A stretch of 38,217 bases of DNA from a bacterium (GTDB lineage Bacteria; Actinomycetota; Acidimicrobiia; Spongiisociales; JAENVV01), in assembly GCA_024641305.1 (NCBI GenBank), contig JAHEDI010000010.1, positions 48,417 to 86,633 on the forward strand. The letters run 5' to 3'. Position numbers and translations under genes: made by a program. The notes under the pieces are model-generated. The model did no database searches. It had not been told where the DNA came from and saw only the letters and a program-made list of their open reading frames with translations. This document shows, piece by piece, positions 19,116-22,638 of this stretch; the stretch's first letter is position 1, and every line of letters begins with the position of its first letter.

Positions 19116-19279
19116 CCACCGCTGATCACGGGAATCTGCCACTTGATCGAGTCACGATTCATCAGTGACCTCATCGAGCACTGCCCCGACCAGGTTCTGC
19201 TGTACGACGTCGACTCGCATCCCCTCGACGGACATAGACTCATTAAACCTTCCGGCCTTGTCCGGTGTGTGTTCAGTGA

Positions 19280-19783
19280 ATGGCGACTGTGACCGACAAC
19301 CCGCAAGTTATTTCGTTTGAGGCCTTCTACCGGACCGAATACGGCCCGATGGTGGCCCTGGCGACCGCGGTAGGAGGCAACCCTGCCGTTGGCGAAGACA
19401 TCGCCCAGGAAGCCCTGATTCGTGCACACAAGAACTGGGCAAAGATTTGCTCATACGAACGGCCCGGGACGTGGTTACGTCGCACAACGATCAACCTGGC
19501 GCTCAATGTCCGGCGTGGATCCCGCCGCCAGGGAGCAGCCATCCAACGGCTTGGAAGCCGCCCTGCCAACCCGGTCGAGATCATTCTCAGTGACCCTGCG
19601 GTCTGGCAGGCAGTGGCCGCCTTGCCGGTCCGTCAACGAGCTGCAGTCGCCTTGCACTACCTCGAGGACCGGTCGATCGACGAGATCGCCGGCATTCTCG
19701 AGTGCTCACCGAACACCGCCAAAGCACACCTTCATCATGGTCGACAGTCTCTGGCCAGCCACCTCAAGGAGAATCAGCAATGA
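19280..19783 (+). CDS. ECF-type RNA polymerase sigma factor
   Basis: The 167-residue protein is a two-domain sigma-70 family factor of the extracytoplasmic-function class. Region 2 includes the conserved EDIAQEALIRAHKNW and GTWLRRTTINLALNVRR. Region 4 is a helix-turn-helix with ALPVRQRAAVALHYLEDRS followed by IDEIAGILECSPNTAKAHL. A short linker joins them and there is no extra C-terminal domain. Its stop overlaps the start of a membrane protein by 4 nt (ATGA), which is the classical sigma/anti-sigma layout. The start ATG 19280 lacks a clear SD. A TAGACT -10-like hexamer is at 19235-19240, so a leader of about 35 nt is possible. The 164 nt before the gene hold nothing else I recognise. Confidence 0.93.
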   Translation: MATVTDNPQVISFEAFYRTEYGPMVALATAVGGNPAVGEDIAQEALIRAHKNWAKICSYERPGTWLRRTTINLALNVRRGSRRQGAAIQRLGSRPANPVEIILSDPAVWQAVAALPVRQRAAVALHYLEDRSIDEIAGILECSPNTAKAHLHHGRQSLASHLKENQQ

Positions 19784-21213
19784 GCGAAGACCGGATTCGC
19801 CGGGCATTCGACAACTTGAGCCGCCAGGCCAGACAAGCCAACCCGGATGCCTCCTTAGGAGCCCTCATGAACCCGCAAGAAAACGCCAAGAACCGCTGGA
19901 TATACCTGGCCGCCGCCGCCGTCATCGTTCTCGTACTGGGCTCGGTGGCAATTGCCTTAAACGCAAACCGATCCCGAGACGTAGTTTCGCCGCCGGCCAG
20001 CACTACCGTGACGACATCTGGATCCACCAACTCGACGGTCCCGTCCACTGACTCGACCCGCCCAGGCGAATCCACTACAACCACTGCACCAAACACGTCA
20101 ACGACCAGCACCCCAACCACCACGACTGCTGTGGCGAGCCCGGCGATTGGCTGGCACGTCGTAGATGTCGCCAGCAACGATGTCCTCAACGTGCGCCAAT
20201 CCCCCTCTGCCGTATCCCCGATCGTCGGAACCCTGGCCTACAACCAGGACGACGTGACCGTGCTCCCCCGAGCGGGGAATCCGATAGGTGGACCAGCCTG
20301 GTACGGAGTCCGGCTCACTGATGGAACCGAAGGCTTCGTAAACAGCCGGTTCCTCGGCCACCCGTCGACCTGGGACTCAGGTATCGCCGGGGCACCCTGT
20401 ACGACGAGCCGGAGCTCGGGCGAGGCCACCGCCTCGACGCCAACTAGCGGAGATGCCTCAGCGGTCGTCGGATTGTTCCAGGTCAGTGCCGGCAACTGTG
20501 ACCGTTACGTAATCGTTCTCGGATTAGACAGCGTGGACGTGTTCGAAACCGCCGACACACTCGGCGGCGGAGAGGTCCGTGTGACCAGCGGAGGAACCCG
20601 GGTTACCGTCGAGTTACCCGACTCGATCACCGGTGTGGCCCCCCAGGCGACCAATGCCGACTTCACAGACGCCCTGGCACTCACCGTTCTGCCGATCAAC
20701 ACGACCGGTTCGCCCGATCGGCTCGAAGTGCGTTTCTTGCACGACTCGTCTCGAATAGCTGGTGTTACGGTGCTGTCCAACCCGGCCCGCATCGTCATTG
20801 ACGTCGGCTCCGCCCCGACCGGTACCGGACTCGACTACGCACCGGTCGTCGGAACCGGCAACACCATCCTCGAGCACCCGGTTGATCAGTCAGCAGACAA
20901 GCTCGGCGTCGCCCACCCGTTCAGCGTCACCGGCTACGCCCGCTGGTTCGAAGCCCAAGGGTACGCAACCATTGCGACGGCCGATGGCGCCCGGCCGACT
21001 GACATCTCCTGGTCAGGCCCATCGATGATCACCGCGAACGGAAGTATGGCTTCCATCTACGCCTTCTACATTCCAACGTGGGGCGAGTTCACGTTCACGG
21101 TCGACCTTCCGTCCGGTGGCTACGAGCTATTCGTCGGCGACGACTGCATGAGCGATGACGGCAACTCAAGCCAGCCATGCGGCGTGACGGAGACCTTCGA
21201 CGTGGCTCCGTAA
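19780..21213 (+). CDS. Membrane protein with SH3b, AMIN-like and Ig-like regions; putative anti-sigma/sensor partner of the ECF factor
   Basis: The start ATG 19780 lies in the ATGA overlap with the sigma gene and has AAGGAG about 7 nt upstream. The 477-residue protein has a 39-residue charged cytoplasmic head, one membrane helix (about 40-60), a Thr/Ser/Pro linker (65-120), a bacterial SH3 domain (about 121-197; WHVVDVASNDVLNVRQSPS to GFVNSRFLGHP) and a region like the AMIN-like domain (about 220-345; CDRYVIVLG, RVTVELPDSI, RLEVRFLHD). A C-terminal Gmad2-like, Ig-type region follows (SVTGYARWFEAQGYATI). Operon position suggests control of the sigma factor, but the head lacks the HxxxCxxC zinc motif of common anti-sigma factors. 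Four extracytoplasmic cysteines match those in the next gene. SH3b and AMIN folds often bind cell wall, so an envelope role is likely by inference. Confidence 0.8.
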   Translation: MSEDRIRRAFDNLSRQARQANPDASLGALMNPQENAKNRWIYLAAAAVIVLVLGSVAIALNANRSRDVVSPPASTTVTTSGSTNSTVPSTDSTRPGESTTTTAPNTSTTSTPTTTTAVASPAIGWHVVDVASNDVLNVRQSPSAVSPIVGTLAYNQDDVTVLPRAGNPIGGPAWYGVRLTDGTEGFVNSRFLGHPSTWDSGIAGAPCTTSRSSGEATASTPTSGDASAVVGLFQVSAGNCDRYVIVLGLDSVDVFETADTLGGGEVRVTSGGTRVTVELPDSITGVAPQATNADFTDALALTVLPINTTGSPDRLEVRFLHDSSRIAGVTVLSNPARIVIDVGSAPTGTGLDYAPVVGTGNTILEHPVDQSADKLGVAHPFSVTGYARWFEAQGYATIATADGARPTDISWSGPSMITANGSMASIYAFYIPTWGEFTFTVDLPSGGYELFVGDDCMSDDGNSSQPCGVTETFDVAP

Positions 21214-21229
21214 TCCCCATGACCACTGC

Positions 21230-21268
21230 CTGGTCCCGGACGTGGCATCATTGCTCGTCCGGGACCAG
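21230..21268 (+). terminator. Intrinsic terminator-like hairpin between the two SH3b genes
   Basis: CTGGTCCCGGACG (21230-21242) pairs perfectly with CGTCCGGGACCAG (21256-21268) over 13 bp with a 13-nt loop. Only TTT follows, so termination may be partial, or the hairpin may separate expression levels of the two paralogues. It begins 17 nt after the first gene's stop. Confidence 0.6.
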
Positions 21269-21291
21269 TTTCGCGTACGCTGAGGAGACCG

Positions 21292-22638
21292 ATGACAACG
21301 CCAAATGAAAAGGGTCGCAGCTACGTAGTCGTGGCCGCTGCGGTTACCCTCCTCGTTGCCGCCAGCTGGTTTGCCTCCAAAGCTTTGGGCGGTCCTGCCG
21401 CCGTGACGGTCGGGCCCAATGAGAGCATCCCCGCGACCGCCCCGACCACGGCTCCGACCCCGAGCACCACGCAGCCGCCATCTACGACGGCACCACCGAC
21501 TCCGACCACGTCGGGGACGACAGAAACCACCATCGAAACAACGACCACGACCACCCTGGGTCCCGATACAACAGCAAACATCGGTTGGTATGTGACCGGC
21601 ATCGCACCTGGCGATGTTCTCAACGTGAGAGCTGCTCCGACTGTCAATGCTGAGGTGGTCGGCATTCTGCGGCCCAATCAGGACGAGATCGTCGTCCTAC
21701 CGATGGCCGCCAACCCGATCGGTGGAACCGCCTGGTACGGCGTCCAGTTGCCCAGCGGCGTCGAGGGGTTTGTGAACAGCCGGTACCTCGCTCACCCCAA
21801 TCAGTGGGACGCCGGAATCAAGGCTTCTCCGTGCATGGCTCAGACGGCCACCGGGTCCACAACAGCCAGTACTCCCGCTACCGGAGACGCAACGGCCGTG
21901 ATCGGACTATTCCAGTTTCAGACCGCCACCTGCGACAGGTATGTGATCGTTCTCGGAACGACCGACGGAGCAAGCTTCGAGGCTGGCGATATTCTCGGCG
22001 GGGGCGATGTCGTCGTGACCAGCGGAAAGACGCGTGTTTCGGTCAGTCTTCCACCCGGTGTGGTCGATGTGATTCCCCAAGCGACCAACGCCGATTTCAA
22101 GTTGGCGCTCGCCCTGACGGTGGTTCCGGTGGACCAACCCGAAAGACTGGAAGTCCGTTTCCTCCATGAACAGGGCCGGGTAGCCGGCGTCACCGTGCTC
22201 TCCAATCCGGCTCGGGTCGTCATCGACGTAGCGGAGACGCCGATCGGTGCCGGCCTCGACTTCCGACCGGTCATAGAGACGGGTAATACCGTCCTCGAAT
22301 ACTCGGTCGACCAATCGGTCGACAACGTGGGCATCTCCGGTGGCTTCACGGTGATCGGTTATGCCCGGTGGTTCGAAAGTCAGGGCTATGCCACGGTGCT
22401 CACGCGCGACGCGCAAGATCCAACCACCATCACCTGGTCTGGACCATCGTTGGTTGCGAGCGAAGGAGGCTTCGCCTCACTGAGGGCGCCGTACCAACCT
22501 ACCTGGGGCGAATTCAAGCTGGCTGCGCAAGTCACGCCAGGCAAGTACCGGTTGTTCATCGGGGACGACTGCATCAACTCGATCGACAACACAGTCCAGC
22601 CGTGTGGGGTTACCGAGTCGTTCGAGATCCTGCCCTAG
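21292..22638 (+). CDS. Membrane-anchored SH3b/AMIN-like/Ig-like protein, tandem paralogue
   Basis: The 448-residue protein repeats the extracytoplasmic layout of the preceding gene. It has a membrane helix at about 10-28 (YVVVAAAVTLLVAASWF), a Thr/Pro-rich linker to about 95, an SH3b domain (GWYVTGIAPGDVLNVRAAP to GFVNSRYLAHP), an AMIN-like middle (CDRYVIVLGTTD, RLEVRFLHEQGRVAGVTVLS) and a C-terminal region with VIGYARWFESQGYATV. It keeps the same four cysteines (PCMA, TCDRY, DDCIN, QPCGV). The cytoplasmic head is only about nine residues, so it lacks the candidate sigma-binding part. It could therefore be a co-sensor, decoy or structural partner, or a regulon member. SD GAGGAG precedes ATG 21292. 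A hairpin separates it from its paralogue. Confidence 0.8.
   Translation: MTTPNEKGRSYVVVAAAVTLLVAASWFASKALGGPAAVTVGPNESIPATAPTTAPTPSTTQPPSTTAPPTPTTSGTTETTIETTTTTTLGPDTTANIGWYVTGIAPGDVLNVRAAPTVNAEVVGILRPNQDEIVVLPMAANPIGGTAWYGVQLPSGVEGFVNSRYLAHPNQWDAGIKASPCMAQTATGSTTASTPATGDATAVIGLFQFQTATCDRYVIVLGTTDGASFEAGDILGGGDVVVTSGKTRVSVSLPPGVVDVIPQATNADFKLALALTVVPVDQPERLEVRFLHEQGRVAGVTVLSNPARVVIDVAETPIGAGLDFRPVIETGNTVLEYSVDQSVDNVGISGGFTVIGYARWFESQGYATVLTRDAQDPTTITWSGPSLVASEGGFASLRAPYQPTWGEFKLAAQVTPGKYRLFIGDDCINSIDNTVQPCGVTESFEILP

Follow-up and report, generated by a model that had tools for sequence, protein, structure and literature searches.

How is an extracytoplasmic function (ECF) sigma factor controlled when the membrane protein encoded directly behind it has a cytoplasmic part of only some 40 residues and no zinc-binding anti-sigma motif? 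This question is raised by a locus in the window, by which we mean the whole stretch of 38,217 nucleotides analyzed here (GenBank contig JAHEDI010000010.1; contig C11 of the Acidimicrobiia genome G000). The forward strand carries a gene for a SigE-type ECF sigma factor of 167 amino acids (19280–19783), a gene for a single-pass membrane protein of 477 amino acids, the proposed anti-sigma factor (19780–21213, hereafter the partner), and a tandem paralogue of the partner (21292–22638) that lacks the cytoplasmic head. A first-pass annotation had read the first two genes as a signaling unit in which contact with the cell wall, or damage to it, sets sigma activity. Sequence comparisons make it probable that 19280–21213 encodes a two-gene ECF sigma/anti-sigma switch, whose anti-sigma factor would be minimal, zinc-free, anchored in the membrane and fitted with exchangeable sensors.

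Pairing of SigE-type sigma factors with short membrane heads

The sigma factor consists of regions 2 and 4 only (Pfam Sigma70_r4_2, 9.5e-16; Sigma70_r2, 5e-9), as is expected of an ECF protein of about 170–200 amino acids, and it scores above the cut-off of the NCBIfam sigma70-ECF model; SigW and RpoE are its sequence relatives in the PDB. Among named families TIGR02983, the SigE family, scores best (E = 3.6e-32), and its profile aligns with the protein over its full length. The score of 111.5 bits is below the curated cut-off of 141.55 bits, and we therefore call the protein SigE-type rather than a member of that family. A GTG at 19289 is a possible alternative start. Both reading frames and the ATGA that they have in common at 19780–19783 were confirmed on the sequence, the partner start lying inside the sigma stop codon. 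We judge 19780 to be the correct partner start and reject an upstream GTG at 19702 because the corresponding open frame in genome G003 begins only at about 19780 (475 amino acids from stop to stop).

Residues 1–40 of the partner form the cytoplasmic head (19780–19899, forward strand), with a predicted amphipathic helix at residues 3–19 that bears the motif [DE]xRxRxA[AF]xxL, a form of the head motif described below, and a short second helix at residues 24–29 predicted with low confidence. A transmembrane helix follows at residues ~41–59 (19900–19956) according to hydropathy, and the AlphaFold2 (AF2) model places a helix at residues 40–65. In order to see how general this layout is, we collected sigma genes of the SigE-type group in the order, class and phylum and read the gene downstream of each, which gave 205 pairs. 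The overlap is exactly 4 nucleotides in 160 of them, and the first transmembrane helix starts within 62 residues, directly after a short head, in every one of the 140 pairs whose sigma factors are closest. The HxxxCxxC motif, which the first-pass annotation had found missing from the window partner, is indeed absent from the first 100 residues of every one of the 205 partners. Other ECF genes of the same genome with a like layout have canonical HxxxCxxC partners (L069, L072, L073 and L078), so the reading method tells both kinds apart.

The heads are strongly amphipathic and conform to the motif [DE]xRxRxA[AS/F]xx[LIV], in which the Asp/Glu is invariant (91/91 heads); a loose form of the motif is matched by 72 of 91 heads, compared with 0.18 in shuffles. 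A head profile run over 40 related genomes found 26 heads, and comparison of coordinates places all 26 directly downstream of a SigE-type sigma gene. The observation that had been named in advance as fatal to the pairing, homologues that regularly occur away from any ECF gene, was thus not made for head-bearing proteins in these genomes. Behind the heads, the extracytoplasmic parts fall into at least 38 clusters with no detectable mutual similarity; Ig-like repeats, a solute-binding protein and SH3 domains are examples. A separate observation from the survey is that three SigE-type sigma/short-head pairs lie within ~10 kb of one contig (L114, G009:C37:17921-28519), which amounts to a local expansion. 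We also looked for a naturally fused sigma-head protein in a long-frame match (G179:C332) and did not find one there.

The whole unit is kept in four genomes of the genus, where the sigma-partner-paralogue triple lies between a GCV_T/FAD-oxidase gene and a luciferase-like gene, and it recurs in another family (G061, locus L034, and G062), with 55% identity in the sigma factor, 59% in the head and 32% in the whole partner. Because of this retention the unit appears to be more than a chance occurrence. In a third family, two genomes (L212, L213) combine the head subtype of the window with SH3 and Gmad2-like ectodomains that have an extra C-terminal part. The initial impression of a singular architecture needs correcting: judging by these comparisons, the unit belongs, as one branch, to a large family spread over Acidimicrobiia and other Actinomycetota. 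The sigma/short-head layout is not unusual in that family; what sets the branch in the window apart is confined to the SH3b/Ig ectodomain and the headless paralogue.

Sigma4-head covariation and the proposed switch

To locate a possible contact we computed mutual information between sigma and head columns, at first on 117 pairs, where a single column pair was picked out: residue 108 of the sigma factor and residue 6 of the head. The two states are nearly exclusive: where sigma 108 is Phe, head 6 is Ala, Gly or Ser, and where sigma 108 is Val, Leu or Ile, the head has Leu, Ile, Met or Val. Ninety further pairs were fetched after this rule had been seen, and the rule held in them too. In the combined set of 171 pairs, with head residue 6 placed by the profile, sizes match in 161; a small head residue is never found beside Val, Leu, Ile or Met, and a large one is found beside Phe in three pairs. 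The full set gives z = 18.7 for the 108–6 pair and 6.5 for the next, and the next four pairs also lie in sigma4 (residues 121, 130, 153 and 149 with head residues 10, 7, 6 and 6). No clear coupling between helix 2 and sigma2 was seen in the covariation set.

A signal of this kind could in principle arise from shared ancestry, if covariation and co-occurrence only reflected descent within one operon and the head were a mere anchor for an envelope protein that the sigma factor targets. Related pairs do inherit their states together, and few of the independent contrasts fall on strongly supported branches. Against this stand the isolation of one column pair far from all others, the physically sensible nature of the size switch, and the fact that the 108–6 signal beats shuffles confined to sigma clusters, whether 7 or 22 of these are used. 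When column 108 was left out of the sigma tree, 12 independent contrasts were counted, of which 10 go in the same direction and none in the opposite one. Moreover, the ectodomain belongs to the same operon and has been freely replaced while the head was kept. We consider descent alone a highly improbable explanation.

The covarying position also has a structural counterpart. Val108 of the window sigma factor aligns without gaps with V131 of RpoE, and position 131 belongs to the small set of sigma4 residues in contact with the anti-sigma factor in each of the four class I (ASDI) co-crystals (PMC7406223, Table 2). Arg155 corresponds to RpoE R178, is Arg or Lys in 198 of 201 sequences, and matches a published Arg-Asp contact to helix 1 of the anti-sigma factor. 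It is the first helix of both class I and class II anti-sigma domains that binds sigma4 (PMC7406223). Taken together, the covariation suggests that the head contacts sigma4.

Covariation gives a contact and not its sign, and the head might bind as a positive factor or scaffold, with the membrane protein delivering or stabilizing the sigma factor and no inhibition taking place. A natural loss in genome G002 (L006 / L178, G002:C180) is compatible with either sign: the sigma gene, head, transmembrane helix and SH3 domain are gone and an ectodomain remnant is left, which we read, with caution, as a joint loss of sigma factor and head, since a single contig from a fragmented assembly is the source. 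However, the contact position is the known anti-sigma contact at RpoE V131, and the 4-nucleotide overlap is the usual anti-sigma layout, occupied in the same genome by the canonical HxxxCxxC partners mentioned above. A purely positive role for the head is, in our view, improbable.

In the anti-sigma switch that we favor, the amphipathic helix (residues 3–19) would bind sigma4, with head residue 6 packing on sigma residue 108, as the covariation suggests. By holding its target to the membrane, the bound head would deny the sigma factor access to promoters, an inhibitory role assumed from what ECF partners do in general. Once the SH3b/Ig-like ectodomain sensed a change, the sigma factor would be freed, through either regulated intramembrane proteolysis or a conformational change in the head; six Peptidase_M50 matches in the genome are compatible with proteolysis. 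Freed sigma factor would transcribe its own operon and probably the headless paralogue as well.

Autoregulation is likely on the evidence of the promoter. A predicted ECF promoter, TTAAACC-N16-TGTGTG (19243–19272, forward strand), lies directly upstream of the sigma gene and belongs to a conserved type, GGTAAACC-N16-CGWGT, that precedes many sigma genes of the survey, that of the window included. TAAAC(C) at a fixed spacing to CG[AT]GT or TGTGT stands before 67 of all 206 sigma genes and before 57 of the 68 closest ones, and shuffled sequences never gave more than 2 in 206. The strict pattern is present once per genome in the four genus genomes, at the promoter of the window-type operon; G001 has a second strict copy at a contig end that bears the same upstream gene. 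In a regulon search of the genus genomes, looser forms of the promoter did not exceed the reversed control, and neither wall genes nor other targets could be named.

Several observations weigh against the switch as described. Only two or three of the contrasts lie on well-supported branches, and for this reason the statistical weight of the covariation is good but not final. One clade (L261, L262 and L264) breaks the size rule: it combines Phe at sigma 108 with Leu at head 6, and the conserved Ala is replaced by His. The heads found in other classes are more divergent, and the AF2 model of the head has low confidence. Neither a site-1 protease nor a signal was identified, and no wall gene in the genus genomes carries the strict promoter motif.

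Ectodomain, candidate signals and the headless paralogue

Beyond the membrane, the partner continues with a Thr/Ser/Pro-rich extracytoplasmic linker (19957–20145; pLDDT below 50) and three domains, all on the forward strand. An SH3_3 (bacterial SH3) domain at residues 134–192 (20179–20355) is well supported, with a Pfam E-value of 9.8e-10 and 38.9 bits against a gathering cut-off of 27. The middle domain (residues ~205–345, 20392–20814) is beta-rich according to the AF2 strands, has no Pfam match, and has a homologous counterpart within a stand-alone lipoprotein of genome G017. It had earlier been called AMIN-like, a label that lacks profile support: a profile search with seven relatives returned no AMIN family up to E = 5. 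The C-terminal Gmad2-like Ig domain (residues 377–459, 20908–21156) scores below threshold in the window partner (Pfam E = 4e-4; 21.0 bits, gathering cut-off 25.7), while a homologous lipoprotein (L182:4112-4963) matches Gmad2 at E = 9e-10 with 39.1 bits. The bacterial SH3 fold proposed in the first-pass annotation is accordingly solid, and the Ig-like one is weak. Because the AF2 model strings beta domains around a disordered linker, a search of PDB folds turned up nothing that convincingly matched it as a whole; the only hits of note were wall enzymes with an SH3 domain. The lipoprotein at L182:4112-4963 (reverse strand) is itself a stand-alone protein with window-type middle and Gmad2 domains; its gene adjoins one for GAPDH, and no sigma gene accompanies it.

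What, then, might the ectodomain sense? The pairing half of the earlier proposal, a sigma factor with a short zinc-free head, holds up well given the conserved pairing, the absence of orphan heads and the sigma4 covariation. Its other half, wall contact or damage as the signal, fares less well: the ectodomain is one of at least 38 types borne by the same head, and nothing in the gene neighborhood or in the promoter motif indicates a link to wall genes. The SH3 domain makes a cell-wall signal plausible, and we would give it an even chance at best. In the other family, the unit at L034 (4516–6479) is flanked by secA and prfB-ftsE-ftsX, gene names read from translations; this neighborhood could reflect a connection with division or with the control of wall hydrolases.

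An alternative that overlaps with the switch and differs in the signal alone is that a soluble ligand or a partner lipoprotein is sensed, the paralogue acting as a decoy that competes for the ligand or as an assembly partner. SH3b and Ig-like folds bind many ligands, and this type of ectodomain recurs as a lipoprotein without a sigma factor. The paralogue has the whole ectodomain, is always adjacent within the genus, and survives without the sigma factor in G002. On the other hand, the L034 unit (family g36) has no paralogue, and the ligand is a candidate only. We regard this variant as having a little less than an even chance.

The paralogue predicted downstream was borne out. It is 58% identical to the partner over residues 123–477, that is, from the SH3 domain onward, and comprises ~10 cytoplasmic residues, a transmembrane helix, a linker and the SH3b, middle and C-terminal domains. 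Between the two genes lies a conserved 13-bp RNA hairpin (21230–21268, forward strand; z = -3.2) with a weak U tail; all 13 pairs are kept in six sequences, and three of the pairs show changes on both sides that compensate each other. The hairpin may be an attenuator or a processing or stability element, and since it precedes the paralogue, expression of the paralogue may be attenuated or processed separately from that of the partner. In G002 the paralogue is intact (91% identity), which points to a role that would not depend on the sigma factor.

Comparison with known anti-sigma systems

Anti-sigma factors share little sequence, their identification relies on those already known, and many ECF genes adjoin genes of unknown function (PMC8103513). 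Class I domains account for only about 36% of the putative anti-sigma factors in one large set, in which domains of fewer than 50 residues were set aside (PMC7406223). A short head recognizable by its motif, its covarying pair and a shared promoter would allow such pairs to be annotated across Actinomycetota. The sigma 108/head 6 pair offers one testable contact and may set the specificity of pairing where genomes hold several paralogous pairs. A literature search, the reach of which did not include the 2021 ECF re-classification, found no paper describing the head family; the partner may already be catalogued in that re-classification as an unclassified putative anti-sigma factor.

The window pair resembles class I systems (RseA, RsiW, RskA and ChrR; ZAS/RskA type) in the sigma4 contact at RpoE 131, the 4-nucleotide overlap, the invariant acid in the first helix and the basic residue at RpoE 178. 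Class I anti-sigma domains average 101 residues (PMC7406223), with at least 50 residues, a three-helix bundle and a helix 4 as their hallmarks, whereas heads of the window type have ~40 residues and no room for four helices, the window head being predicted to form one long and one short helix. The Hx3Cx2C signature of ZAS domains is likewise found in none of the 205 partners. RsgI, which acts with SigI in Clostridium thermocellum, has a similar plan of an N-terminal sigma-binding part, one transmembrane helix and exchangeable extracellular sensors, and its cleavage by RseP is known (PMC12203970); unlike SigI, the window sigma factor is a SigE-type ECF protein, and no RsgI profile match was returned. 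Some surveyed partners show weak N-terminal matches to the NCBIfam "anti-sigma factor" models CU044_5270 and NF052375, all of them far below the curated cut-offs, and the window partner matches neither.

Tentatively, and with somewhat more doubt than belief, we suggest that the heads constitute an anti-sigma class of their own, so far unclassified: zinc-free helices of ~35–45 residues, anchored in the membrane, that would inhibit SigE-type ECF factors across Actinomycetota by a size-matched grip on sigma4 and that are combined with 38 or more exchangeable ectodomains and a single common kind of autoregulatory promoter. The systems to measure it against are those of class II (CnrY/CnrH and NepR/EcfG). 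We found no sequence relation to CnrY or NepR, as the head profile searched against the PDB to E = 10 gave two unrelated chains and no anti-sigma factor. The class II fold places helix 1 on sigma4 and helix 2 on sigma2; the window head has two helices in a low-confidence model, and only the coupling of helix 1 to sigma4 is clear. The window partner also differs in being a single-pass protein with a large ectodomain. Nevertheless, class II domains are likewise short, zinc-free and helical, and helix 1 of CnrY binds sigma4 (PMC7406223, PMC8103513) just as helix 1 of the window head covaries with it, which makes them the nearest known systems in both size and mode.

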